Source of the DNA: Paracoccaceae bacterium
GTDB lineage: Bacteria > Pseudomonadota > Alphaproteobacteria > Rhodobacterales > Rhodobacteraceae
Length of the DNA: 64,000 nucleotides
Assembly (NCBI GenBank): GCA_026419405.1
Contig: JANZZL010000065.1
Span: 1-64,000, forward strand
Direction of reading: 5' to 3'
The position numbers and the translations under genes are program-made. Under the pieces are notes generated by a model. It worked only from the letters and a program-made list of their open reading frames with translations, was not told the DNA's origin and did not search any database. Shown in pieces: positions 7,934-21,300 of the stretch; position 1 is the first letter of the stretch; the number at the start of each line of letters is the position of its first letter.

Positions 7934-9412
7934 CTAGATTCTCCCGTCCAGCGCGGCGACGGCCACGCTCGCCTGTTCGACGTCGTCGAAGGGAAACACC
8001 GTGTCGCCCACCGTCTGCCCGCGCTCGTGCCCCTTGCCCATCACGAGGAGCGCATCCCCCGGACCGAGCGCATCGACCGCCCGCAGGATCGCCTCGGCCC
8101 GGTCGCCGACCTCCTTGGCCCCCGGACAGCCGGCGAGGACCTCGGCGCGGATCGCGGCGGGATCCTCGGAACGGGGGTTGTCGTCGGTGACGAAGACCAC
8201 ATCGGCGTGCTCGGCCGCGGCCCGGCCCATCAGCGGCCGCTTGCCGCGGTCGCGGTCGCCGCCGGCGCCGATCACCGCGACGAGGCGGCCCATGACATGC
8301 GGCCGCAGCGCGCGGAGCGCGGTCGCCACCGCGTCGGGCGTATGGGCATAGTCGACGAACACCGCCGCCCCGTTGTCGCGCGTCGCGGCGTGCTGCATCC
8401 GGCCGCGCACGGTCTCGAGGCGGGGCAGCACGCGGGCGATGTCGGCGGCCGCCTCGCCCGAGGCGAGCGCGAGCCCGGCGGCGACCAGCACGTTCTCGGC
8501 CTGGAAGCCGCCGATCAGGCCGAGGCGGAGCTGGTGCACCTCGCCCCCGATCGAGAAGCGCAGTTCCTGCCCGGTGGCGTCGAAGCGCTGGCCGAGCAGA
8601 CGGATCGCGGCCTCGGGCCGCCGGCCGGTGCCGAGCACGCGCGCCCCGGCGGCCGCCGCGGCCTCGGCCACGCGGGGCCCGTAGGCATCGTCGAGGTTGA
8701 CGACCGCGGTGCCCTCGGCGGGCAGCAGCCGGGTGAAGAGCCCGAGCTTGGCCGCGAGGTAGGCATCCATCGTGCCGTGGTAGTCGAGATGGTCGCGGCT
8801 GAGGTTGGTGAAGGCCGCCGCCGTCAGCGCCACCCCGTCGAGGCGGCGCTGGTCGAGCCCGTGCGACGAGGCCTCCATGGCAAGATGCGTCACCCCCGCG
8901 CGGGCCATCCCGGCCAGCAGCCCGTGCAGCTCCACCGGCTCGGGCGTGGTGTGCGAGAGCGGCGCAGAGAAGGCCCCCTCCACCCCGACCGTGCCGAGGT
9001 TGCAGGCCGCCCGGCCGAGGGCCGCCCAGATCTGCCGGGTGAAGCTTGCCACGCTGGTCTTGCCGTTGGTGCCGGTCACGGCGACCACGGTTTCGGGCTG
9101 CGCCCCGAACCACAGCGCGGCGGCGCGCGCCAGCGCCTCGCGCGGGTCGGCCGCGACGACGAGCGGGGCCGGCGAGGCCGCCAGCGCCCCGGCCGCGAGC
9201 CGCGCCCCCTCGGCATCGGTCAGCACCGCGCTGGCACCCATGCCGAGCGCGTAGGGAATGAACTCGCCCCCGTGCACCCGGCTGCCGGGCAGCGCGGCGA
9301 AGAGCATCCCCTCGCGCACCTTCCGGCTGTCGACCGCAAGCCCGGTGACGCGCGCCTCGCGGCCGCCCTGGGCGGTCAGCCCGAGGTCGGAGAGTGATTT
9401 CGACGCGCCCAT
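7934..9412 (-). CDS. murE: UDP-N-acetylmuramoyl-L-alanyl-D-glutamate--2,6-diaminopimelate ligase
   Basis: Adds meso-diaminopimelate to UDP-MurNAc-L-Ala-D-Glu. The 492-residue protein has the VDSR motif at 27-30, the ATP loop GTNGKTS at 114-120, and the signature TDDNPRSE in the C-terminal domain; DNPR is the motif that selects diaminopimelate over lysine, as expected for a Gram-negative cell. It lies 22 bases after ftsI and abuts murF without a gap. Confidence 0.97.
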   Translation of the reverse strand: MGASKSLSDLGLTAQGGREARVTGLAVDSRKVREGMLFAALPGSRVHGGEFIPYALGMGASAVLTDAEGARLAAGALAASPAPLVVAADPREALARAAALWFGAQPETVVAVTGTNGKTSVASFTRQIWAALGRAACNLGTVGVEGAFSAPLSHTTPEPVELHGLLAGMARAGVTHLAMEASSHGLDQRRLDGVALTAAAFTNLSRDHLDYHGTMDAYLAAKLGLFTRLLPAEGTAVVNLDDAYGPRVAEAAAAAGARVLGTGRRPEAAIRLLGQRFDATGQELRFSIGGEVHQLRLGLIGGFQAENVLVAAGLALASGEAAADIARVLPRLETVRGRMQHAATRDNGAAVFVDYAHTPDAVATALRALRPHVMGRLVAVIGAGGDRDRGKRPLMGRAAAEHADVVFVTDDNPRSEDPAAIRAEVLAGCPGAKEVGDRAEAILRAVDALGPGDALLVMGKGHERGQTVGDTVFPFDDVEQASVAVAALDGRI

Positions 9413-9434
9413 GCCCGGTGCCCCCGCCCCGCCG

Positions 9435-11222
9435 TCAGTTGCGGGCGAGTGTTACCCCGTCCTCCCCGGCGGTTGCAATCGCGGGCCGCACGCCGAGGAT
9501 CGGCGCGATGCGGCGGATGATCTCGGCCGCGACCGGAACCGCCGTCCAGCCGGCGGTGCGGCGCGGCTCGGGGCCCGAGGTCTCGACCGGCTCGTCGAGC
9601 GAAACGACGATGACATAGGCCGGGTTGTCGGAGGGGAACATGCCCGCGAAGGTGGTGATGACCTTGTCGCTGTGATAGCCGCGCCCGTCGCGCAGCGGCT
9701 TGTCGGCGGTGCCGGTCTTGCCGCCCACGGAATAGCCCGGCACGTCGGCCAGCGTCGCGGTGCCGCGCGCCACCGTCTCGCGCAGCATCGAGCGGACGAT
9801 CGCCGAGGTCTGCTCGGAGATCACGCGCTCGCCGCGCAGGGGGATGTCGCGGTGCAGGATCGTCGGCGTCACCTTGTAGCCGCCGTTGACCAGCGTCGCG
9901 TAGGCGGCGGCGAGGTGCAGCGGCGAGGCCGAGGTGCCGTGGCCGTAGGAGATTGTCATCACCGAGATCTCGGGCCAGTTCTTCTGCGGGAAGAGCGGCT
10001 GGACACCCGGCGCCTCGGCCATCTCGATTGCGGTGGGCGCGAGCAGGCCGAGGCGGGCCAGGAAGGCCTTCTGCCGCTCGGCCCCGATCATCAGCGCGAT
10101 GCGCGCGGTGCCGACGTTGGAGCTCTTGACGATGACGTCGGTGACCGAGAGCTCGGGGCCGTAGTTGCGGAAGTCGCGGATGCGGTGGCGGCCGTGGGTC
10201 ATCGGGCTGCGGGTGTCGATCCGCGTCTCGGGGGTGACGAGGCCGAGGTCCAGCGCCTGGGCCACGGTGAAGATCTTGTAGGTCGAGCCGAGCTCGTAGA
10301 CGCCCTGGACCGCACGGTTGAACAGCGGGTTGTCGGAGGCGTCGCCCGAGGTCGGCGGCGCGGGCCGGTCGTTGGGGTCGAAATCGGGCAGCGAGGCCAT
10401 GGCGACGACCTCGCCGGTCCGGGCATCCATCACCACCGCCGCGGCGCCCTTGGCGTTCATCAGCGCCATGCCGGCCTCCAGCACCTGCTCGACCGCCGCC
10501 TGCACCGAGAGGTCGAGCGAGAGCACCAGCGGCCGGCCCTGGTTGGCGGGGTCGCGCAGGCGTTCGTCGAAGGTCTTCTCGACGCCGGCGGTGCCGATCA
10601 CCTCGGCGGAATGGACCCCCTCGCGGCCGAAGGCGGCGCCGCCCAGCACATGCGCCGCCAGCGCGCCGTTGGGGTAGAGGCGCATCTCGCGCGGGCCGAA
10701 CAGCAGCCCCGGATCGCCGATGTCGTGCACCGCCTGGCGCTGCTCGGGGCTGATCCGGCGCTTGATCCAGACGAAGGTGCGCCCGCCGGTGAACTGCCGG
10801 ATCAGCCGGTCGCGGTCGAGATCGGGGAAGATCGAGGCGAGCGCGCGGGCCGAGCCCTCGGGGTCGATCATCTGGCGCGGCTGGGCGTAGAGCGACCAGG
10901 TGACGAGGTTGGTCGCGAGCAGCTGGCCGTTGCGGTCGGTGATGTCGGCGCGGTTGGCGAGGATCTGCGCCCCCGAGCCCGCCGAGCGCGGCTCGGCCGG
11001 GTCGGTCGCGGCGAGCACGCCCATGCGGATGCCGACCGTGCCGAAGGCGCAGAGGAAGAACAGCGCCAGCACGAAGAGCCGCCCCTCGGCGCGGGCGCGG
11101 GCGCGGTCGCGCAGTTCCTCGTGGCGCAGGCGGATGTTCTCGCGCTCGATCGCATCGGGGTTCTCGCCCTTCGCGCGGGCCGCGAGGATGCGGGCGAGCG
11201 GACGCAGCGGCGTGCGGATCAT
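9435..11222 (-). CDS. ftsI: Peptidoglycan D,D-transpeptidase FtsI (penicillin-binding protein 3)
   Basis: Septal transpeptidase. From the ATG at 11222 the product is 595 residues: a basic cytoplasmic N-terminus, a transmembrane helix at about 48-70, a PBP dimerisation domain (from about 88), and the transpeptidase domain with the three active-site motifs STYK (Ser313, Lys316), SSN (367-369) and KTG (502-504). The start overlaps the ftsL stop as ATGA, which argues against longer frames reaching to 11426. In the dcw operon it follows ftsL, its partner in the divisome. Confidence 0.97.
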   Translation of the reverse strand: MIRTPLRPLARILAARAKGENPDAIERENIRLRHEELRDRARARAEGRLFVLALFFLCAFGTVGIRMGVLAATDPAEPRSAGSGAQILANRADITDRNGQLLATNLVTWSLYAQPRQMIDPEGSARALASIFPDLDRDRLIRQFTGGRTFVWIKRRISPEQRQAVHDIGDPGLLFGPREMRLYPNGALAAHVLGGAAFGREGVHSAEVIGTAGVEKTFDERLRDPANQGRPLVLSLDLSVQAAVEQVLEAGMALMNAKGAAAVVMDARTGEVVAMASLPDFDPNDRPAPPTSGDASDNPLFNRAVQGVYELGSTYKIFTVAQALDLGLVTPETRIDTRSPMTHGRHRIRDFRNYGPELSVTDVIVKSSNVGTARIALMIGAERQKAFLARLGLLAPTAIEMAEAPGVQPLFPQKNWPEISVMTISYGHGTSASPLHLAAAYATLVNGGYKVTPTILHRDIPLRGERVISEQTSAIVRSMLRETVARGTATLADVPGYSVGGKTGTADKPLRDGRGYHSDKVITTFAGMFPSDNPAYVIVVSLDEPVETSGPEPRRTAGWTAVPVAAEIIRRIAPILGVRPAIATAGEDGVTLARN

Positions 11223-11587
11223 TCCGGGATCTCCTCCTGCTGCTGCGGGCCCGGACCGACGACGTCGACCGGGGCTGCGGACATCTGCAGCAGCCCCGGC
11301 GGCGGCGGGAAGGCGACCGCATCGACCGTGCCGAACTGCTCGGGCAGCAGCGGCAGCAGCCCGAGCCGGTCGAAGTTGAGCTCGGCGAGGTCGCGCAGCC
11401 GGTCGGGGCGGTTGAGATAGGCCCATTCGGCGCGCAGCACCGAGAGCGCCTCGCGCGTCTCGGCGATGCGCCGTTCCAGCCGCTGCACCTCGTCGAGGGC
11501 GGCCTGGGTGGCATAGTTCTCGCGGTAGGCCCAGAAGGCCAGCGCCATGACGCCGAGCGCGGCGAGCACGGAGAGGAAGGCCCTCAT
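11219..11587 (-). CDS. ftsL: Cell division protein FtsL
   Basis: A small bitopic divisome protein of 122 residues. A transmembrane helix at about 3-19 is followed by a heptad-like helix (roughly 25-60, with [12 protein letters not shown]) and then the conserved YLNRPDRL...LNFDRLGL segment typical of alphaproteobacterial FtsL, ending in a Pro/Gln-rich tail. It overlaps rsmH by four bases (ATGA) and ftsI by four bases. Sequence conservation in this family is low; position between rsmH and ftsI supports the call. Confidence 0.9.
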
Positions 11588-12591
11588 CGCCCGAGCTCCT
11601 TCAGCGCCAGGGCGGGCAGGCCCAGCGCGGCGCGGTCGGCGGCGCGGGCGGCGGCGCGGGCGGGGGCGGCGGTGCGCTCGGCCACGCGCAGCATCGCCGA
11701 GCGGGCGCGCGGGTTGCGGGCGATCTCGGCGGCATCGGGCGCGACGGCCCGGCCGAGCAGGCGGAAGGAGGGCTCTGCGGCCTGCGGCAGGGGGGCGTGC
11801 CGGCTGCCGCCGCCGGCGCCCGAGCGGCTCTGGAGAAAGCGCTTCACGATGCGGTCCTCGAGCGAATGGAAGGTGACGACGGCGAGCCGCCCCCCGGGCC
11901 TCAGCGCGCGTTCGGCGGCCTCGAGGCCGCGGACGAGCTGGCCGAACTCGTCGTTCACCGCGATGCGGAGCGCCTGGAAGCTGCGCGTCGCCGGGTGGCT
12001 CTGGCCCGGCCCGGGCCGCGGCAGGCAGCGCGCGACGACGGCGGCGAGCTGCAGCGTGGTGGCAAGCGGCCGGGCGGCGACGATGGCGCGGGCGATGCGG
12101 CGCGCGGCGCGCTCCTCGCCATACTGGAACAGGATGTCGGCAAGCCGCGCCTCGGGCAGCGTGTTGACCAGGTCGGCCGCGGTCGGGCCCTGGCCGCCCA
12201 TGCGCATGTCGAGCGGGCCATCCTTCTGGAACGAGAAGCCGCGCGCGGCCTCGTCGAGCTGCATCGAGGACACGCCGAGGTCGAGCACCACGCCGTCGGC
12301 CGGCCCGCCCGCGATCGCGTCGAGCCGGTCGAAGGTGCCCTCGACGAGGCGCAGGCGGTCACCGTAGGCCGCCGCCCAGGGCCGGGCGAGCGCGAAGACG
12401 GAGGGGTCGCGGTCGATGCCGATCACGCGGGCGGCCCCGGCATCGAGGAGCGCGCGCGCGTAGCCTCCCGCGCCGAAGGTGCCGTCGACCCAGAGGCCGG
12501 CGACGGGCGCCACGCGGTCGAGCAGCGGTCCGAGCAGGACGGGGATGTGGGGGGCGTCTGGCGGGGTCGCGCGGGCAGTCGCGGCGGCCAT
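11584..12591 (-). CDS. rsmH: 16S rRNA (cytosine(1402)-N(4))-methyltransferase
   Basis: Methylates N4 of C1402 in the ribosomal P site. The 335-residue protein starts with the family hallmark HIPVLL (15-20), followed by SAM motif [11 protein letters not shown] at 36-45, IDRDP near 59-63, and the [11 protein letters not shown] and [10 protein letters not shown] blocks. Formerly called MraW. It starts three bases after the mraZ stop and overlaps ftsL by four bases. Confidence 0.97.
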
Positions 12592-12594
12592 GCC

Positions 12595-13104
12595 TCAGCC
12601 TCCCTTCGCGGGCAGCTCGGGCAGGAGCGAGAACACGTCGGCGCCCTCGGGCAGGGAACCGAGCACGGCGTCGAGCCGCGCCTTCTCGCGCGCCTCGTAG
12701 GTTTCGGGCTTCCAGATCTGGAAGGTGTCGGCGGTGCCGGCGAAGTAGACCTCGCCCTCGAGCCCGAGCTTGTCGCGCAGCTTCTGGCTCAGCACGATGC
12801 GGCCGTCCTCGTCCACCTCGGCATCGGTCGAGAGGGTGTAGAGCAGCGTCTCCATCGCGCGGCGCTCGGGCGAGCCGCGCTGCATGAGCGCGACGCGGGC
12901 GTCCACGTCCTCCATCGCGGTCATCGAGAAGCATTCCAGATAGTGGCGGCGCTCGTCGCCGTAGACGATGACGAAGCGCGGGCGCTTGCCGGTTTCCCAG
13001 TCGGGGTCCTGGGCCTCGAGCACGCGGCGGAAGCTGGCCGGGATGGAGACCCGGCCCTTGCCGTCCACCTTCTGGCGGAACTCGCCTCTGAACACCCGCG
13101 CCAC
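12595..13104 (-). CDS. mraZ: Transcriptional regulator MraZ
   Basis: DNA-binding regulator that heads the dcw cluster and represses it in E. coli. It contains two AbrB-like halves; the first is seen in FRGEFRQKVDGKGRVSIP near residues 5-22. A GTG start at 13104 gives 169 residues and the usual N-terminus (MARVFRGEF). A TTG at 13191 is possible but would place the leader hairpin inside the gene. A strong GGAGAGGAG lies about 24-32 bases upstream of the GTG, in front of an ACG codon, so the exact start is uncertain. The gene follows a terminator-bearing leader and candidate MraZ repeats. Confidence 0.92.
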   Translation of the reverse strand: MARVFRGEFRQKVDGKGRVSIPASFRRVLEAQDPDWETGKRPRFVIVYGDERRHYLECFSMTAMEDVDARVALMQRGSPERRAMETLLYTLSTDAEVDEDGRIVLSQKLRDKLGLEGEVYFAGTADTFQIWKPETYEAREKARLDAVLGSLPEGADVFSLLPELPAKGG

Positions 13105-13158
13105 GCCTGCCGCGCCCTTCTGCCTCGTCCCGTTCTCCTCTCCGGTGTCCCGGACAGG

Positions 13159-13198
13159 AAAACGGCGGATTGGGTTGCTGCCACCGCCCAATCCGCCG
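13159..13198 (-). terminator. Leader terminator (attenuator) of the mraZ operon
   Basis: Minus-strand CGGCGGATTGGG pairs perfectly with CCCAATCCGCCG over a 12-base loop (stems 13187-13198 and 13163-13174), followed by TTTTCC. This is a textbook intrinsic terminator placed inside the leader of an essential operon, so it must be bypassed for dcw expression. Confidence 0.85.
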
Positions 13199-13375
13199 CC
13201 CTCGTCCCATCGCTGGGGTGTCCGACTGCGCAGGCCACCTGGGGGGATGCTGCTCGCTTGCGCGCCGGATCTCTCTTACCGATGAAGCGGTTGCCTGTAT
13301 GAACCTGCCTCTGGTTCTGCGGGGGTTCTGCGCGCCCCTCCTGTCCCGTCCTCATCTTGGCCAAGGGATGACATG
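13159..13375 (-). ncRNA. upsM: UpsM-like leader RNA of the dcw operon
   Basis: The minus-strand leader of mraZ is long and contains no gene. It ends in a perfect 12-bp hairpin followed by TTTT, about 55 bases before the mraZ start. In Rhodobacter sphaeroides a 268-nt mraZ leader with a Rho-independent terminator yields the sRNA UpsM when transcription stops there and dcw mRNA when it reads through. Counting 268 bases back from the mraZ start gives about 13372, close to where I place the 5' end, but no convincing -10/-35 pair is visible. The match rests on architecture and position, not on alignment. Confidence 0.65.
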
Positions 13376-13388
13376 GGATTTCATGGAA
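13364..13388. promoter_or_regulatory. Candidate MraZ-binding direct repeats
   Basis: On the plus strand AGGGA (13364), TGGGA (13374) and TGGAA (13384) occur at exact 10-base spacing. MraZ is known to bind TGGGN repeats separated by 5 bases in front of mraZ. The repeats sit near the predicted 5' end of the leader, where autorepression would act. A further TGGGA at 13405 is one base out of phase. Confidence 0.5.
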
Positions 13389-13800
13389 ATCAACTGATTT
13401 CTCATGGGAAAGGACGGCAGATTGCCGGGCCGCGGCCACCCGGAGCGCCGAGTCAGCCCCCCTTGCGCAGCATGTGCCTGGCCGTATCCGCCAATACCAC
13501 AACATCTTGTGGCGCTCAGGTGCGAGGCTCTTTCCCACGATTTCCCGGAGTTTTCCGTCCGCGTGCCCGGCGGACCCCGCCCCGCCGCCCCGCCGGGCGC
13601 TGCCGGGGCCGACTCACGCCCGCTCCCGGCCCCGTGATTCGCCGTGAGCGGCATCCCGAGGGGCCTTCGACGGGCCGGAACCGGCCGGATCCGGCCCCTT
13701 GCGCCGGGACCCGGCCGGGGCCAGCCCGGCGACTGCCCGGCGACTGCCCGGGAATTCGGCAGGTCGCCCGAAAAATGGGTCAGGAATTCATATGCAATTG

Positions 13801-13811
13801 CTGCATGGCAG
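13801..13811. promoter_or_regulatory. PhaR-like palindrome CTGC-ATG-GCAG
   Basis: CTGCATGGCAG matches CTGC-N3-GCAG, the operator type reported for the polyhydroxyalkanoate regulator PhaR of Paracoccus. It lies in an unusually AT-rich patch with further TGC/GCA steps, about 50 bases upstream of the putative promoter of the sRNA at 13864. No phasin or PHA gene is nearby, so the match may be accidental. Confidence 0.3.
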
Positions 13812-13863
13812 AAATGCGCATCGGAGTATTGTGCATCCGCAGCAAAGGACCAAATATGAGCCC

Positions 13864-14007
13864 AACGGCGGGCGCCACGGTGTCCGCCCGGGAAATCAGA
13901 AAGCCCTTCCTCCTCCCTGGGTTTTCTGTTTCCGGCGGCGGCCCCCTCCTCCTCCCTGGGGTCGCCGCCAATCCTTCGGGCCGGAGCCTCGCGCTCCGGC
14001 CCTTTTT
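13864..14007 (+). ncRNA. Candidate CcsR/cuckoo-type tandem-hairpin sRNA
   Basis: Two successive hairpins each present CCTCCTCCC in the loop: stem 13898-13906/13919-13927 and stem 13934-13945/13958-13969. An intrinsic terminator follows. Loops of CCUCCUCCC are the hallmark of the CcsR sRNAs of Rhodobacter, which act in stress defence and usually lie downstream of a DUF1127 gene; no such gene is present here. A weak promoter (TTGTGC at 13829, 17 bases, AAATAT at 13852) would start transcription near 13864, but the 5' end is a guess. The RNA is divergent from mraZ and convergent with uvrD. Confidence 0.75.
13978..14007 (+). terminator. Intrinsic terminator of the candidate sRNA
   Basis: GGGCCGGAGC pairs perfectly with GCTCCGGCCC over the loop CTCGC and is followed by TTTTT. 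The T-run is only on the plus strand, so it serves the sRNA and not the convergent uvrD gene. Confidence 0.9.
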
Positions 14008-14029
14008 CATCCCCGCCGGGGCCGGAGGA

Positions 14030-16399
14030 TCAGAACGGAACGTCGCCGGCGCGGTCGGCCGCCACCACGAAGCGCGCCACCACCTTCTTCCCGCCCGCCT
14101 TGTCGAAGGCGATGTCGAGCTTGTCGCCCTCGATGCCGGTGACGGTGCCGTAGCCGAACTTCTGGTGGAACACCCGGTCGCCCCGGGCGAAGGCCGGAAC
14201 CGCCTCGAGGTCGATGGTGATGTGGCGCGCCTCCTGCGGCTGCGCCATCGGGCGCAGGGCGATGCGCTCCTGCATCCGCCGCCAGCCGGGCGAGTTGTAG
14301 ACATCGGCCCGGGCGACGCGCGCCTCCATCGCCGAGGCCGCCGCGGGCGCCGCCGCGCCGAAGCCGCCGCCGCGGAGGCCGGGCGGCGTCAGCACCTCGA
14401 CGTGGTCCTCGGGAAGCTCGTCGATGAAGCGCGAGGGCAGCTGGCTCTGCCACTGGCCGTAGACGCGCCGGTTCGCGGCGAAGGAGATGATGCAGAGCTC
14501 CTCGGCGCGGGTGATGCCCACGTAGGCGAGCCGACGTTCCTCCTCGAGGCCCTTCAGCCCGCTCTCGTCCATGCTGCGCTGGCTGGGAAACAGCCCGTCC
14601 TCCCAGCCCGGCAGGAACACGACCGGGAATTCCAGCCCCTTGGCCGCGTGCAGCGTCATGACGGTGACCTTCGGCCCGCCCTCCTCGGCCTCGTTGTCGA
14701 GGATGAGCGCGACGTGTTCGAGGAAGCCCTGGAGATTCTCGAATTCCTCGAGCGCCTTGACGAGCTCCTTGAGGTTCTCGAGCCGGCCGGCCGCCTCGGG
14801 CGACTTCTCGTTCTGCCACATCGCCGTGTAGCCCGATTCCTCGAGGATCGTCTCGGCGAGCGCGACGTGGTTCTCCTTCGGGTCGAGCGCCGCCCCGTGC
14901 CAGCGGCCGAAGCCCTGGAGCAGCGCCTGGAGCTCGGCCCGGGCCTTCCCCGTGACCTCGCCGGCCGCGAGCATCAGCCGCGCGCCCTCGAACAGGCTGA
15001 CCCCGTTCGCGCGCGCGGCCTGCTGCATCCGCTGCAGCGCCTTCTCGCCGAGCCCGCGCCTGGGCACGTTGACGATGCGCTCGAAGGCGAGGTCGTCGTC
15101 GGGGCTGACGGCGACGCGGAAGTAGGCCATCGCGTCGCGGATCTCCTGGCGTTCGTAGAAGCGCGGGCCGCCGACCACGCGGTAGGGCAGGCCGATGGTC
15201 AGGAAGCGGTCCTCGAAGGCGCGCATCTGGTGGGTGGCGCGCACGAGGATGGCGATCTCGTCGGGGGCGAAGCGCCGCAGGCCCCGGGTGCCCTGCCCCA
15301 GCGCCTCGATCTCCTCGCCGATCCAGCGCGCCTCCTCCTCGCCGTCCCAGTGGCCGATGAGGCGGAGCTTCTCGCCCTGCCGCGCCTCGGTCCAGAGCGT
15401 CTTGCCGAGCCGGTCCCTGTTGGCCGCGATCAGTCCCGAGGCGGCGGCGAGGATGTGCGGGGTGGAGCGGTAGTTCTGCTCGAGCCGGACCACCTTCGCG
15501 CCGGGAAAGTCCTTCTCGAAGCGCAGGATGTTGCCGACCTCGGCGCCGCGCCAGCCGTAGATCGACTGGTCGTCGTCGCCCACGCAGCAGATGTTGCGGT
15601 GCCCGCCGGCGAGCAGCCGGAGCCAGAGATACTGCGCGACGTTGGTGTCCTGGTATTCGTCCACGAGGATGTAGCGGAACCAGCGGCGATACTGCGCCAG
15701 CACGTCCTCGTGGCGGCGGAAGATCGTGAGGCAGTGCAGCAGCAGGTCGCCGAAATCGACCGCGTTCAGCGTGCGCAGCCGCTCCTGATATTCGGCGTAG
15801 AGCCGCCCGCCCATGTGGTTGAAGCCCGCCGCCTCGGCGGCGGGAAGGTCCTCGGGCGTCCAGGCGCGGTTCTTCCAGTGGTCGATGAGGCCGGCGAGCT
15901 GGCGCGCGGGCCAGCGCTTCTCGTCGATGTTGGCGGCCAGCACGAGCTGGCGCAGCAGCCGCACCTGGTCGTCGGTGTCGAGGATGGTGAAGTTCGGCCT
16001 GAGGCCCGCGAGTTCGGCGTGCCGGCGCAAGAGCTTGACGCCGATCGCGTGGAAGGTGCCGAGCCAGGGCATCCCCTCGACCGCCTGGCCGAGCAGGCGC
16101 CCGACGCGCTCCTTCATCTCGCGCGCGGCCTTGTTGGTGAAGGTGACGGCGAGGATCTCGTTCGGGCGCGCGCGGCCGGTGTGGATGAGATGCGCGATGC
16201 GCGCGGTCAGCGCCTTGGTCTTGCCGGTGCCCGCGCCGGCCAGCATCAGCACGGGGCCCTCGAGCGCCTCGACCGCCTCGCGCTGCGCGGGGTTGAGGTC
16301 GTCGAGATACGGGGCGGGACGCGCGGCCATCGCCCGCGCCGAAAGCGGCGCGCGGGCGGCGGCGGCAGCGAAGGCTTCGTGGTCGTCGAAGGTGCTCAT
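14030..16399 (-). CDS. uvrD: ATP-dependent DNA helicase UvrD/PcrA family
   Basis: A 789-residue SF1 3'-5' helicase for nucleotide excision and mismatch repair. Walker A is AGAGTGKT at 54-61, followed by TFTNKAA (motif Ia), DEYQDTN (motif II), GDDDQSIYGWRGA (motif III), QNYRS, VMTLHAAKGLEF (motif V) and VGITRAEE (motif VI), all in order. The C-terminus ends in the PcrA/UvrD-type Tudor-like segment (GDRVFHQKFGYGTV). A perfect LexA box lies 42 bases upstream of the ATG at 16399, so SOS induction is expected. Confidence 0.95.
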   Translation of the reverse strand: MSTFDDHEAFAAAAARAPLSARAMAARPAPYLDDLNPAQREAVEALEGPVLMLAGAGTGKTKALTARIAHLIHTGRARPNEILAVTFTNKAAREMKERVGRLLGQAVEGMPWLGTFHAIGVKLLRRHAELAGLRPNFTILDTDDQVRLLRQLVLAANIDEKRWPARQLAGLIDHWKNRAWTPEDLPAAEAAGFNHMGGRLYAEYQERLRTLNAVDFGDLLLHCLTIFRRHEDVLAQYRRWFRYILVDEYQDTNVAQYLWLRLLAGGHRNICCVGDDDQSIYGWRGAEVGNILRFEKDFPGAKVVRLEQNYRSTPHILAAASGLIAANRDRLGKTLWTEARQGEKLRLIGHWDGEEEARWIGEEIEALGQGTRGLRRFAPDEIAILVRATHQMRAFEDRFLTIGLPYRVVGGPRFYERQEIRDAMAYFRVAVSPDDDLAFERIVNVPRRGLGEKALQRMQQAARANGVSLFEGARLMLAAGEVTGKARAELQALLQGFGRWHGAALDPKENHVALAETILEESGYTAMWQNEKSPEAAGRLENLKELVKALEEFENLQGFLEHVALILDNEAEEGGPKVTVMTLHAAKGLEFPVVFLPGWEDGLFPSQRSMDESGLKGLEEERRLAYVGITRAEELCIISFAANRRVYGQWQSQLPSRFIDELPEDHVEVLTPPGLRGGGFGAAAPAAASAMEARVARADVYNSPGWRRMQERIALRPMAQPQEARHITIDLEAVPAFARGDRVFHQKFGYGTVTGIEGDKLDIAFDKAGGKKVVARFVVAADRAGDVPF

Positions 16400-16440
16400 C
16401 GCGCGCAGTCTAGCGCGGCAGCGGGCGGAGCGAAAGAATT

Positions 16441-16455
16441 GTTCGCACTTCGTTC
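16441..16455. promoter_or_regulatory. Perfect LexA (SOS) box upstream of uvrD
   Basis: GTTC-GCACTTC-GTTC is an exact match to the alphaproteobacterial LexA site GTTC-N7-GTTC. It lies 42 bases before the uvrD start (minus strand) and 76 bases before the membrane-protein gene (plus strand), so it could control either. Confidence 0.85.
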
Positions 16456-16530
16456 GCGGCCGGTCCCTGCGGCCTTGCCATGCCGCGGGCGACGGCGGAT
16501 GCTGTGGCGGTCCGGCCGGAGGGGATGACG

Positions 16531-17076
16531 ATGGGCGATCTGGTTCAGGGCCTGCTCAAGGGCCTCCTGGTCGTGGCGATCCTGACGCTGATCGCCTGGC
16601 TCATGTCCCGCGCCCGGCCGGCCGAGACCGGGCCGGCGGGCGGGCGCATCCGCCCCAACCGCGCGCTGATCGCGGTGCTCAGCCTCGGCGCGCTCGGCAT
16701 CGCGGGGCTTGCGCTGACCGCGGCGGCGCGCTGGAACGGCGGCGCCCCGGCGCTGCTCGTCGGCGGCGGGTTCCTGGCCCTGGGGGCGCTGGTCGCCACG
16801 TCGCTGACCACCGCCTACGACGTCACCTGGACGGCGGAGTCGGTGACCGGCCCGGCCACGCACGGCGTCTGGCCCTTCGGGCCACGCCGCGACACGGTGC
16901 GCTTTGCCGACATCGCCGAGGCCGGACAGACCTGGACCGGCTCGCTCTACGTGCGCGACGGCGCGGGCCGGCGGGTGATGTGGAACTACGCCTACGGCGG
17001 CTACACCGCGCTGATGGCGGCGATCGAACGGGCGCGGCCGGACATGTTCGGCCCCGGCGCGGAGCCGGACGGCTGA
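16531..17076 (+). CDS. Small membrane protein of unknown function
   Basis: I do not recognise a family. The 181-residue product has three hydrophobic segments at about 8-25, 45-65 and 72-93 and a soluble C-terminal half rich in beta-like stretches (TAYDVTWTAESVTGP, then a WPFGPRRDTVRFADI block), which might resemble the PH-like domains of other small membrane proteins. The ATG at 16531 has GGAGG at the right distance; the ATG at 16525 touches it. It is divergent from uvrD and shares its intergenic region with the LexA box, so an SOS link is possible. Confidence 0.7.
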   Translation: MGDLVQGLLKGLLVVAILTLIAWLMSRARPAETGPAGGRIRPNRALIAVLSLGALGIAGLALTAAARWNGGAPALLVGGGFLALGALVATSLTTAYDVTWTAESVTGPATHGVWPFGPRRDTVRFADIAEAGQTWTGSLYVRDGAGRRVMWNYAYGGYTALMAAIERARPDMFGPGAEPDG

Positions 17077-17115
17077 GCCTTCCCCGCGGCGCGGCTTGCG
17101 GCTAACGCTGGCGGC

Positions 17116-18261
17116 ATGGACCTCGACCTGCGCTACCCGGCCGTCTCCGACCTCCGCGAGAGGGCGCGGCGGCGCATCCCGCACTTCGCCTTCGAGTATC
17201 TCGACAGCGGCACCGGGGCCGAGCTTCAGGTGCGCCGCAACCGCGAGGCGCTGGATGCGGTGTGGTTCCTGCCCTCGGCGCTGCCGGGCCGGGTGGACCC
17301 CGACTTCAGGACGACCTTCCTCGGGCAGGACTGGGACCGGCCGTTCGGCATCGCGCCGCTCGGCATGTCGGGGCTGATGTGGCCCGGCGCCGAGGCGCTG
17401 CTGGCGCGGCACGCCGCACAGGCGCGCATCCCCTACTGCCTGTCCACCGTGGCCACGCGGCTGCCCGAGGAGATCGGGCCGCTCGCCCAGGGCACGGGCT
17501 GGTTCCAGCTCTACGTGCCGGCCCGCGGCGACATCCTGCGCGACATCCTGCGCCGGGCGCGGGAGAGCGGCTTTTCCAAGCTCGTGCTCACCGTGGACGT
17601 GCCCGACGACAGCCGGCGCGAGCGCCAGCGGCGGGCGAACCTCACCCTGCCGCCGAAGGTGACGCCGCGGATGGTCTGGGAGATGCTGCGCCACCCTGCC
17701 TGGTCGCTCGGCACCGCGCGGTTCGGCCGCCCGCGGCTGCGGCTGGCCGAGAGCTACGTCGCGAGCCGCAAGAGCCGGTCCTCGCTCGCGCACGCCGGCC
17801 ACGTCATCCGCGGCACGCCCGACTGGGACACGCTGAGGGAGATCCGCGACCTCTGGTCGGGCGACCTGATCCTGAAGGGCGTGATGGACCCCGAGGTGGC
17901 GGTGCGGCTGCGCGCCCACGGCGCCGACGCGATCTGGGTCTCGAACCACGGCGGACGGCAGCTCGAGGCCGCGCCGGCGGCGATCACGATGCTGCCGAAG
18001 GTGCGCGCGGCACTGGGGCCGGAGGTGCCGGTGCTGTTCGACAGCGGGGTGTCGAGCGGCATGGACGTGCTGCGGGCGCTGGCGCTCGGCGCCGACTTCG
18101 TGATGCTGGGCCGCGCCTGGCACTATGCGGTCGCGGCACTCGGCGCGAAGGGGCCGGGGCACCTGCACCACATCCTGACCGAGGACATGCGGCTCAACAT
18201 GGCGCAGGTCGGCGCGCACCGGATCGCGGACCTTGCCGCCCGTCTCTGCCCGCCCCTCTGA
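17116..18261 (+). CDS. lldD: FMN-dependent alpha-hydroxy-acid dehydrogenase (L-lactate dehydrogenase type)
   Basis: A 381-residue TIM-barrel flavoenzyme that oxidises L-lactate or another 2-hydroxy acid. The family signature SNHGGRQLEAAP near 276-287 contains the active-site histidine (His278). LTVDVPDDSRRERQRRAN, the FMN-binding LKGVMDPEVA and the FDSGVSSGMDVLRAL phosphate site are also present. The N-terminal segment is shortened but starts with the usual DLRERARRRIP. It stands alone, 40 bases after the membrane-protein gene. LldD, glycolate oxidase-like and mandelate dehydrogenase members cannot be separated by eye. Confidence 0.85.
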   Translation: MDLDLRYPAVSDLRERARRRIPHFAFEYLDSGTGAELQVRRNREALDAVWFLPSALPGRVDPDFRTTFLGQDWDRPFGIAPLGMSGLMWPGAEALLARHAAQARIPYCLSTVATRLPEEIGPLAQGTGWFQLYVPARGDILRDILRRARESGFSKLVLTVDVPDDSRRERQRRANLTLPPKVTPRMVWEMLRHPAWSLGTARFGRPRLRLAESYVASRKSRSSLAHAGHVIRGTPDWDTLREIRDLWSGDLILKGVMDPEVAVRLRAHGADAIWVSNHGGRQLEAAPAAITMLPKVRAALGPEVPVLFDSGVSSGMDVLRALALGADFVMLGRAWHYAVAALGAKGPGHLHHILTEDMRLNMAQVGAHRIADLAARLCPPL

Positions 18262-18357
18262 GCAGGGTCGGTCGCAAATCCTTCGCACTGCGTCCTTCCG
18301 CCTATTGCGCCGCACCGCAGCATGCCTAGAGTGCCGTCGGGCTCACGGGGGGACGCC

Positions 18358-21300
18358 ATGCCGCACTTCAGGAAGATCCTCATCGCCAACCGGGGCGAGA
18401 TCGCGATCCGCGTGATGCGCGCGGCCAACGAGCTGGGCAAGCGGACGGTCGCCATCTACGCCGAGGAGGACAAGCTTTCGCTGCACCGGTTCAAGGCCGA
18501 CGAGGCCTACCGCGTCGGCGCGGGGCTGGGGCCGGTGCAGGCCTATCTCTCGATTCCCGACATCATCCGCGTGGCGCGCGAGGCGGGCGCCGACGCGATC
18601 CACCCCGGCTACGGCCTGCTTTCCGAGAACCCCGAGTTCGTCGAGGCCTGCAACCGCGCCGGCATCGCCTTCATCGGCCCGACGGCCGAGACCATGCGCA
18701 AGCTGGGCGACAAGGCCTCGGCCCGCAAGGTGGCGATCGCGGCCGGCGTGCCGGTGATTCCGGCGACCGAGGTGCTGGGCGACGACATGGAGGCGATCGC
18801 GCGCGAGGCCGAGGCGATCGGCTATCCCTTGATGCTGAAGGCCTCCTGGGGCGGGGGCGGGCGGGGCATGCGGCCGATCAACCACCCCGGCGAACTGGCC
18901 GAGAAGATCCGCGAGGGACGGCGCGAGGCCGAGGCGGCCTTCGGCAACGGCGAGGGCTACCTCGAGAAGATGATTCCGCGCGCGCGCCACGTCGAGGGGC
19001 AGATCCTCGGCGACAGGCACGGCACGATCTACCACCTGTGGGAGCGCGACTGTTCGGTGCAGCGCCGCAACCAGAAGGTCGTGGAGCGCGCCCCCGCCCC
19101 CTATCTGACGCAGGCGCAGCGCGAGGAGCTCTGCGACCTCGGCGTCAGGATCGCCCGCGCGGTGGGCTACGAATGCGCCGGCACCGTCGAGTTCCTGATG
19201 GACATGGCGACGGGCGCCTTCTACTTCATCGAGGTCAACCCGCGCATCCAGGTCGAGCACACCGTCACCGAGGAGGTGACGGGCATCGACATCGTGCAGG
19301 CGCAGATCCGCATCGCCGAGGGCGCGACGCTGGCCGAGGCGACCGGCGTCGCCTCGCAGGAGGAGGTGAAGCTCAACGGCCACGCGATCCAGTGCCGGAT
19401 CACGACCGAGGACCCGCTCAACAACTTCATCCCCGACTACGGCCGCATCACCGCCTACCGCGGCGCGACCGGCATGGGCATCCGGCTCGACGGCGGCACC
19501 GCCTATTCGGGCGCGGTCATCACCCGCTACTACGACTCGCTGCTCGAGAAGGTGACGGCCTGGGCGCCGACGCCCGAGGGTGCGATCGCGCGGATGGACC
19601 GGGCGCTGAGGGAGTTCCGCATCCGCGGCGTGGCGACCAACATCGCCTTCGTCGAGAACCTGCTGAAGCACCCGAAGTTCCTGTCGAACGAATACCACAC
19701 CCGGTTCATCGACGAGACGCCGGAGCTGTTCAGCTTCCGCAAGCGGCGCGACCGGGCGACGAAGATCCTGACCTACATCGCCGACATCACCGTGAACGGC
19801 CACCCCGAGACGGTTGGCCGCCCGCGCCCCTCGCCCGATGCGCGCCAGCCGCGGCCCCCTGCCCTGCGCGGCGACCCCGCGCCGGGGACCAAGCAGCTCC
19901 TCGAGGAGAAGGGGCCGAAGGCGGTGGCCGACTGGATGCTGGCGCAGACCCGCGTGCTGGTCACCGACACCACGATGCGGGATGCGCACCAGTCGCTCTT
20001 GGCCACGCGGATGCGCTCGATCGACATGATCCGCGTCGCCCCCGCCTATGCGGCCAACCTGCCGGACCTGTTCAGCGTGGAATGCTGGGGCGGGGCGACC
20101 TTCGACGTGGCCTACCGCTTCCTGCAGGAATGCCCCTGGCAGCGGCTGCGCGACCTGCGCGCGCGGATGCCGAACCTGCTCCTGCAGATGCTGCTGCGGG
20201 GCGCGAACGGGGTGGGTTACACCAACTATCCCGACAACGTGGTGCGCTTCTTCGTGAAGCAGGCCGCCGAGACGGGGGTGGACCTGTTCCGCGTGTTCGA
20301 CAGCCTCAACTGGGTGGAGAACATGCGCGTCGCCATGGATGCGGTGCTCGAGTCGGGGCGCATCCTGGAGGGCACGATCTGCTACACCGGCGAGATGCTC
20401 GACCCCGCGCGGTCGAAGTACGACCTGAAATACTACCTGAAGATGGCGCGCGAGCTGGCCGATGCCGGCAGCCACGTCATCGGCCTGAAGGACATGGCGG
20501 GGCTGCTCAAGCCGGCGACCGCGCGGGTGCTCGTGAAGGCGCTGAAGGAGGAGGTGGGGCTGCCGGTGCACCTGCACACCCACGACACCGCCGGCATCGC
20601 CTGCGGCACGATCCTCGCGGCCGCCGAGGCGGGGGTGGACGCGGTCGATGCCGCGATGGATTCGCTGTCGGGCAACACCAGCCAGGCGACGCTGGGCACG
20701 GTGGTCGAATCGCTGCGCTACACCGACCGGCCGACGGGGCTCGACATCGGCGCGATCCGCGAGATCTCGAACTACTGGGAGCAGGTGCGCGCCCACTACG
20801 CGGCCTTCGAGAGCGGCATGCAGTCGCCCGCCTCGGAGGTCTACCTGCACGAGATGCCGGGCGGGCAGTTCACCAACCTCAAGGCGCAGGCGCGCTCGCT
20901 GGGGCTCGAGGAGCGCTGGCACGAGGTGGCCGAGGCCTATGCCGAGGTGAACCGGATGTTCGGCGACATCGTGAAGGTCACCCCCTCGTCGAAGGTGGTG
21001 GGCGACATGGCGCTGATGATGGTGGCGCAGGGGCTGACGCGGGAGGACGTGGAGAACCCCGCGCGCGAGGTGGCCTTCCCCGAGTCGGTCGTGGACATGA
21101 TGCGGGGCAACCTGGGCCAGCCCCCCGGCGGCTGGCCCGAGGCGCTGCAGCGGAAGGTGCTGAAGGGCGAGACGCCGATCACCGACCGCCCCGGCCTGCA
21201 TGCCGAGCCGGTGGACATCGAGGCGACGCGGGCGCGCGTCTCGGCCGAGCTCGAGGGCTTCAGGCTCGACGACGAGGACCTCAACGGCTACCTGATGTAT

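Follow-up and report, generated by a model that had tools for sequence, protein, structure and literature searches.

The locus considered here raises the question of what the element on the plus strand between mraZ and uvrD is, why it lies there, and where its usual partner gene has gone; the window, as the term is used below, is the whole stretch of DNA that was analysed, 64,000 nucleotides in length. In the explanation that we find probable, the element is a trans-acting sRNA of the CcsR/ar14 family, which occupies the ancestral uvrD-mraZ site of that family and derives from a ccaF1-CcsR operon that has been split. The element comprises the following features.

13864–14007, plus strand: predicted stand-alone sRNA of 144 nt, its start placed only from a conserved promoter-like sequence
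13867–13888, plus strand: predicted 5′ hairpin of 9 pairs (13867–13875 with 13880–13888)
13891–13933, plus strand: hairpin 1, with the anti-Shine-Dalgarno motif CCUCCUCCC in a 12-nt loop (13897–13906 paired with 13919–13928, extended by 13891–13895 with 13929–13933)
13934–13969, plus strand: hairpin 2, also with CCUCCUCCC in a 12-nt loop (13934–13945 paired with 13958–13969)
13978–14007, plus strand: intrinsic terminator from the terminator scan, 10 pairs (stem 13978–14002) followed by T5 (14003–14007)

As modelled, the 144-nt RNA would consist of four hairpins, namely the 5′ hairpin, two hairpins exposing CCUCCUCCC, and the terminator. An earlier note on this DNA had described two hairpins with the motif in 12-base loops and a T5 terminator on the plus strand between mraZ and uvrD, and both are present, at 13891–13969 and 13978–14007, respectively. 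Folding of 13864–14007 gives −90.1 kcal/mol vs −59.3 (sd 4.1) in 200 dinucleotide shuffles, none of which folds as well (0/200; z −7.5). A pair of CCTCCTCCC separated by 18–48 nt occurs once in the whole 3.5-Mb genome, and the backward pattern gives 0 occurrences. The 5′ hairpin, absent from the earlier note, is predicted as well; in one stand-alone relative (L028), the loop of this hairpin reads CCUCCC, so that the 5′ hairpins might be descendants of loop hairpins.

Covariance models bear on the identity of the element. The Rfam model ar14 (RF02344) is matched over positions 1–123 at 59.1 bits, which barely passes the curated cut-off of 58.8 and represents the sole non-tRNA Rfam match of the 64-kb window, whereas CcsR1 (RF02791) is matched over its full length (positions 1–83 of 83) at 47.3 bits, under its cut-off of 65.3. 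The two stem-loops of CcsR1, each exposing CCUCCUCCC, are both found; of the three CCUCCUCCC loop hairpins of ar14, two are found, and the third hairpin of the model is replaced by the terminator, whose loop (CUCGC) is without the motif. Judged by sequence and covariance model, the element is a CcsR/ar14 ('cuckoo') sRNA, in agreement with the CcsR/cuckoo-type assignment first made. Other Rfam families tried at the sRNA site, including 6C, Scr3202, ar7, and suhB, scored below their cut-offs. A second CcsR copy was not found in the same genome, either with the covariance model, which was run on 150 of 475 first-look candidates, or with an exact double-motif pattern. Within the family of the host, ar14 matches with E ≤ 0.001 occur in 205 of 248 genomes and exceed the cut-off in 31.

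The structure is also supported by covariation across 17 stand-alone loci. Among the 22 stem pairs, 8 have changes in both partners, and pairing holds in 95.4% of cells, values that were reached by none of 500 shuffles, and shifting the partner by 1–3 columns makes pairing fall to 40–59%; in this alignment, rows L178, L180, and L189 are offset by one in hairpin 1. Such compensatory changes among relatives, on which the earlier note had made its claim depend, affect both stems, and the loop motif is constant. When the rows are folded singly, both hairpins form in 17 of 17 loci. For each hairpin, moreover, the loop motif is unpaired in 284 of 292 two-hairpin units, which were drawn from all loci gathered by then and pre-filtered by folding energy.

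The genomic setting of the sRNA is defined by two genes and a leader.

12595–13104, minus strand: mraZ, the first dcw-cluster gene, divergent from the sRNA (NCBIfam and Pfam)
13159–13198, minus strand: in the mraZ leader, a terminator-like hairpin with T4 behind it, at an UpsM-like position, unlisted by the terminator scan (rule: 5 T)
14030–16399, minus strand: uvrD, the convergent neighbour (Pfam)

For mraZ, a GTG start is proposed from the conserved beginning of the protein. A search of named genomes with uvrD yielded 80 loci, with mraZ in range in 29, and no claim is made for the other 51. Between uvrD and mraZ, CCTCCTCC motifs are found in 28 of these 29 Rhodobacterales loci (the sole exception is L108), on the strand opposite to both genes, as in the window; two of the 28 (L045 and L077) contain a single exact motif. 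With the order uvrD-sRNA-mraZ kept in so many relatives, the interval is, on this comparison, the ordinary and ancestral place of the family, and the earlier description of it as a new location has to be abandoned. The published names of the R. sphaeroides RNAs, where CcsR was formerly RSs0680a and UpsM is RSs0682 (PMC3927594, PMC5089854), point the same way, as far as position can be inferred from the numbering. The arrays of L053 and L067 are very long, with 16 and 20 CCTCCTCC motifs, respectively, lying in a single locus downstream of uvrD. In L130 and L133, at least two DUF1127 genes stand in tandem, each near its own CCTCCTCC motifs, which possibly represent duplicated ccaF1-CcsR operons.

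This setting could be taken to mean that the sRNA is placed beside the dcw cluster in order to act on it, with loops that base-pair with the mraZ leader and thereby connect stress with division, a connection that the earlier note suggested. The adjacency of sRNA and mraZ is indeed conserved, and the dcw leader of R. sphaeroides is reported to be a target of sRNA regulation (StsR-UpsM; PMC8625941, PMC8307010). However, the sRNA is divergent from mraZ and is therefore not antisense to its leader; the predicted pairing of the loop with the mraZ start region, at −9.9 kcal/mol, does not stand out when 45 coding-like ORFs from the window are compared (best −19.1), and the best pairing in the leader (−16.1 vs a mononucleotide-shuffle mean of −15.0) is equalled by 29% of 300 shuffles. 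We consider a division link of this kind very improbable, and inherited gene order is the simplest explanation for the conserved place of the sRNA beside mraZ.

The unusual feature of the window locus is the missing ccaF1, not the location. In the published R. sphaeroides operon, ccaF1 is reported together with CcsR1-4, the CcsR RNAs are released from the ccaF1 transcript by RNase E with CcaF1 aiding the cleavage, the promoter is under RpoHI/RpoHII control, and a ccaF1 deletion strain was not obtainable (PMC10253847). Among the 28 loci with CCTCCTCC motifs between uvrD and mraZ, 23 contain a DUF1127 gene (ccaF1) in the same stretch; it is absent from L041 (Rhodovulum tesquicola), L043 (Palleronia rufa), L051 (Mangrovicoccus), L084 (Meridianimarinicoccus roseus), and L096 (Fluviibacterium aquatile), which gives an unselected frequency of 5/28 for the stand-alone state. 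Like the window, L051, L084, and L096 contain a single two-hairpin unit. No DUF1127 match was found at positions 9001–20000 of the window, where the cotranscribed upstream gene of the CIN1 operon would be expected, and the sRNA is in this sense stand-alone, as had been claimed; 12 further stand-alone regions, which were picked for lacking DUF1127, likewise contain none.

Upstream of the sRNA, three promoter features are recognized.

13801–13811, plus strand: left promoter dyad CTGC-ATG-GCAG, which fits exactly the site CTGCNNNGCAG reported for PhaR of R. sphaeroides
13829–13857, plus strand: core promoter-like stretch from the profile search, with a −35-like TTGTGC (13829–13834), 16–17 nt, and CAAATA/AAATAT
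13831–13842, plus strand: right promoter dyad GTGC-ATCC-GCAG, overlapping the −35-like TTGTGC

By profile search, the stretch at 13829–13857 and the promoter of linked ccaF1-CcsR operons are homologous, and the operon's promoter directly precedes the window sRNA; a simple sigma-70 scan reported no promoter at these positions. The DNA profile, which was trained on 16 stand-alone promoters including that of the window (L124 was dropped, having been missed by the script's rule), matches all 28 named loci, with a promoter homologous to that of the CIN1 operon in each. Since 5 of the 28 belong to the training set, the independent matches are the DUF1127-linked loci (23/23). The consensus of 116 promoter instances (104 distinct) reads GTCAGCA-N4-CCTATGCATTTGCTGCATAGCAGCATTGC-N9-ATTGTGCANNCGCAGCATNNGCCTATCTT, then TCAACGG, and the −10-like CAAATA of the window departs from the family consensus TATCTT.

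This departure belongs to the features that would be expected if the two loop hairpins were a decaying remnant of a CcsR array, no longer expressed or used, together with an array of the shortest possible length and a third hairpin without CCUCCUCCC. Decay is nevertheless improbable in our view: both loops and both stems are intact, with compensatory changes across the stand-alone loci, the promoter profile score is among the better ones (E 2.4e-19, the window itself being in the training set), and a strong terminator closes the sRNA.

The preferred reading, that of a still usable sRNA from a split operon, gains from what is found elsewhere in the genome. There are five DUF1127 matches, four of them above the cut-off. 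One of these genes, on another contig (C83:14000–24000, loci L114/L190), is CcaF1-like (69 aa, 66.7 bits with a local profile); it has no array and carries a copy of the ccaF1-CcsR promoter (E 4e-14). Promoter-bearing DUF1127 genes were found at 10 loci in 9 of the 16 stand-alone genomes, that of the window included, and none of the 10 has an array, although one CCTCCTCC motif is present in the part of L158 that was inspected; in the other 7 genomes, no promoter-bearing DUF1127 gene was found at the threshold used, both counts covering 34 of 49 DUF1127 matches. In 10 linked genomes (30 of 39 matches examined), there are 11 promoter-bearing DUF1127 loci, of which 9 have an array and 2 weaker ones, both from Pseudorhodobacter, do not.

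The gene adjoining the relocated copy, which we take to be quinone-oxidoreductase-like, also adjoins a DUF1127 gene in the genomes G384 (82% identity) and G321 (81% identity), the latter with a weak promoter score (E 0.0013); within the 3-kb loci compared, this neighbour was not found beside other promoter-bearing DUF1127 copies. In the UvrD tree, G384, G321, and the window form a clade with 99% support, and given the shared neighbour gene, the clade would thus share one split. The promoter directly before the sRNA and the promoter-bearing CcaF1-like gene elsewhere, whose neighbour is the same as in sister genomes, together argue that the ccaF1-CcsR operon has been split in this genome, a step that we hold with good confidence as part of the whole explanation. 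A duplication of ccaF1 with subsequent loss of the copy at this site would be indistinguishable from a move. Across the UvrD tree, parsimony counts 7 changes of the split state, 2 of which are forced by well-supported branches, and a single origin is not rejected (AU p 0.055). Because the search that supplied 10 of the 16 split rows started from similarity to the sRNA of the window, the frequency of splitting is not readable from this tree.

On the split-operon explanation, the ccaF1 reading frame would have been lost from between the operon promoter and the array, and the array reduced to one two-hairpin unit. The sRNA would then be made directly from the old operon promoter, as a primary transcript that ends at a terminator of its own, and release from a ccaF1 transcript would no longer be needed. 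As the CcaF1-like gene elsewhere lies under a copy of the same promoter, the two products would presumably still be made together. The mode of action may be analogous to that of NfeR1 of Sinorhizobium meliloti, whose three redundant loops are reported to cover the Shine-Dalgarno sequences of mRNAs (PMC10746234): either of the two identical anti-Shine-Dalgarno loops would cover the ribosome-binding sites of several mRNAs and thereby silence them. Lineages in which ccaF1 and CcsR have been parted by nature would show that cotranscription is dispensable, and they offer a clean system for asking what CcaF1 does for CcsR, a family for which effects on C1 metabolism and pyruvate dehydrogenase are reported (PMC8625941).

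A further question concerns the regulator of this shared promoter. The two TGC dyads of the window promoter lie 30 bp apart and are conserved in the promoter family as CTGC-ATR-GCAG and [CG]TGC-N4-GCAG; among 104 distinct promoters, the exact left dyad is present in 69, the right dyad in 97, and both in 63. Their spacing is 30–31 bp in 45 of 46 measurable instances (of 116), and looser spacing rules give other values in 24 of 76, of which 18 (−9) are spurious, the pattern having matched inside the right dyad. A binding site CTGCNNNGCAG is reported for R. sphaeroides PhaR, and S. meliloti phasin promoters are described as having two sites that flank the −35 (PMC12542648). On its own, CTGCNNNGCAG is not above chance in the window (4 vs 2.96 expected) and GTGCNNNNGCAG occurs 10 times vs 5.3 expected; only the double arrangement is rare. 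In the 3.5-Mb genome of the window, it occurs at three places (backward control 0), namely in the promoters of the sRNA and of a phasin-like gene that immediately precedes phaR, and within hrcA, a rarity that is partly circular because the gap range of 12–24 was set after both the window and the phasin promoter had been seen. The phaR gene is clear (TIGR01848, 159.4 bits vs 109.45), and the Pfam match of the phasin-like gene is just under its cut-off (22.6 vs 24.9).

Sixty other genomes of the family provide the independent test of the double dyad. With the window's own genome included (61 in total), there are 87 forward and 84 reverse occurrences vs 14 and 16 for the backward pattern, palindromic sites being counted on both strands, and 52 of the 61 genomes have at least one. 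Among the matches listed, the 29 double-dyad loci from other genomes divide into 8 of operon type, all with a DUF1127 gene (8/8), 7 at phasin and phaR genes, and 14 at neither. The phasin promoter of the window's genome (L221, contig C99, about 745–815) contains a pair of CTGC-N3-GCAG dyads at a spacing of 28 bp, as well as a third dyad that has the 10-mer TGCATCCGCA in common with the right dyad of the window; since this third dyad (TGCANNYGCA) is found in only 2 of the 8 phasin promoters examined, its support is weak.

Control of the sRNA promoter by the PHB repressor PhaR is plausible on these grounds. Tentatively, and with somewhat more doubt than belief, we extend this to a proposal that the PhaR regulon includes the ccaF1-CcsR stress RNAs of Rhodobacterales: a pair of PhaR dimers on one face of the promoter would tie both the anti-Shine-Dalgarno sRNA and CcaF1, its RNA-binding partner, to PHB granule state. 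Natural selection would have split the operon in several lineages, this one among them, and left each half with the double dyad, because what must stay is joint control linked to PHB rather than cotranscription or co-processing. There is about an even chance that the double dyad is instead the site of a dedicated non-PhaR regulator, or part of a core RpoH promoter only, with a convergent likeness to phasin promoters. Such a reading would suit the left-dyad centre, which is ATA or ATG in 60 of the 69 distinct operon/sRNA promoters with CTGCN3GCAG and purine-N-pyrimidine in the phasin-type sites listed, as well as the 4-nt centre of the right dyad, the spacing of mostly 30–31 bp in operons vs 28 bp in the phasin promoter here, and the published control of R. 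sphaeroides ccaF1, for which RpoHI/RpoHII alone are reported (PMC10253847); it accounts less readily for the exact match of the left dyad to the reported PhaR site, the genome-wide rarity of the double dyad and its co-occurrence with a phasin promoter, and the shared TGCATCCGCA. Among the matches listed, no literature joins the regulator PhaR with CcsR or CcaF1, the founding CcsR, CcaF1, and cuckoo papers lying outside that scope. Were PhaR to act at the double dyad, the carbon-storage state would feed directly into the CcsR sRNA family.

Compared with known systems, the window promoter resembles phasin (phaP) promoters with PhaR boxes in having a pair of CTGC-N3/4-GCAG-type dyads, spaced by about three turns of the helix, around the core promoter, an arrangement rare elsewhere in the genome, but differs from them in the central bases of the left dyad, the 4-nt centre of the right dyad, a spacing that is off by 2–3 bp, and the position relative to the −10. 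A neighbour in R. sphaeroides is UpsM, an sRNA formed by termination in the dcw leader, and a terminator-like hairpin is present in the mraZ leader of the window too; the window sRNA lies on the other strand and has another structure, with CCUCCUCCC loops that UpsM lacks. With CcsR1-4 of the R. sphaeroides ccaF1-CcsR operon ('CIN1 locus'), the window sRNA shares two hairpins per unit with CCUCCUCCC loops, a homologous promoter in relatives, and the same uvrD-mraZ place in Rhodobacterales loci; unlike them, it has no ccaF1 before it, consists of one unit only, and would need no processing from a ccaF1 transcript. It also resembles alpha-r14/NfeR1 of S. meliloti, the 'cuckoo' family whose RF02344 cut-off it passes, as a predicted stand-alone sRNA that has a promoter of its own and multiple, redundant anti-Shine-Dalgarno loops, although it has two loop motifs rather than three and another promoter, that of NfeR1 being described as LsrB/NtrC-controlled (PMC10746234).
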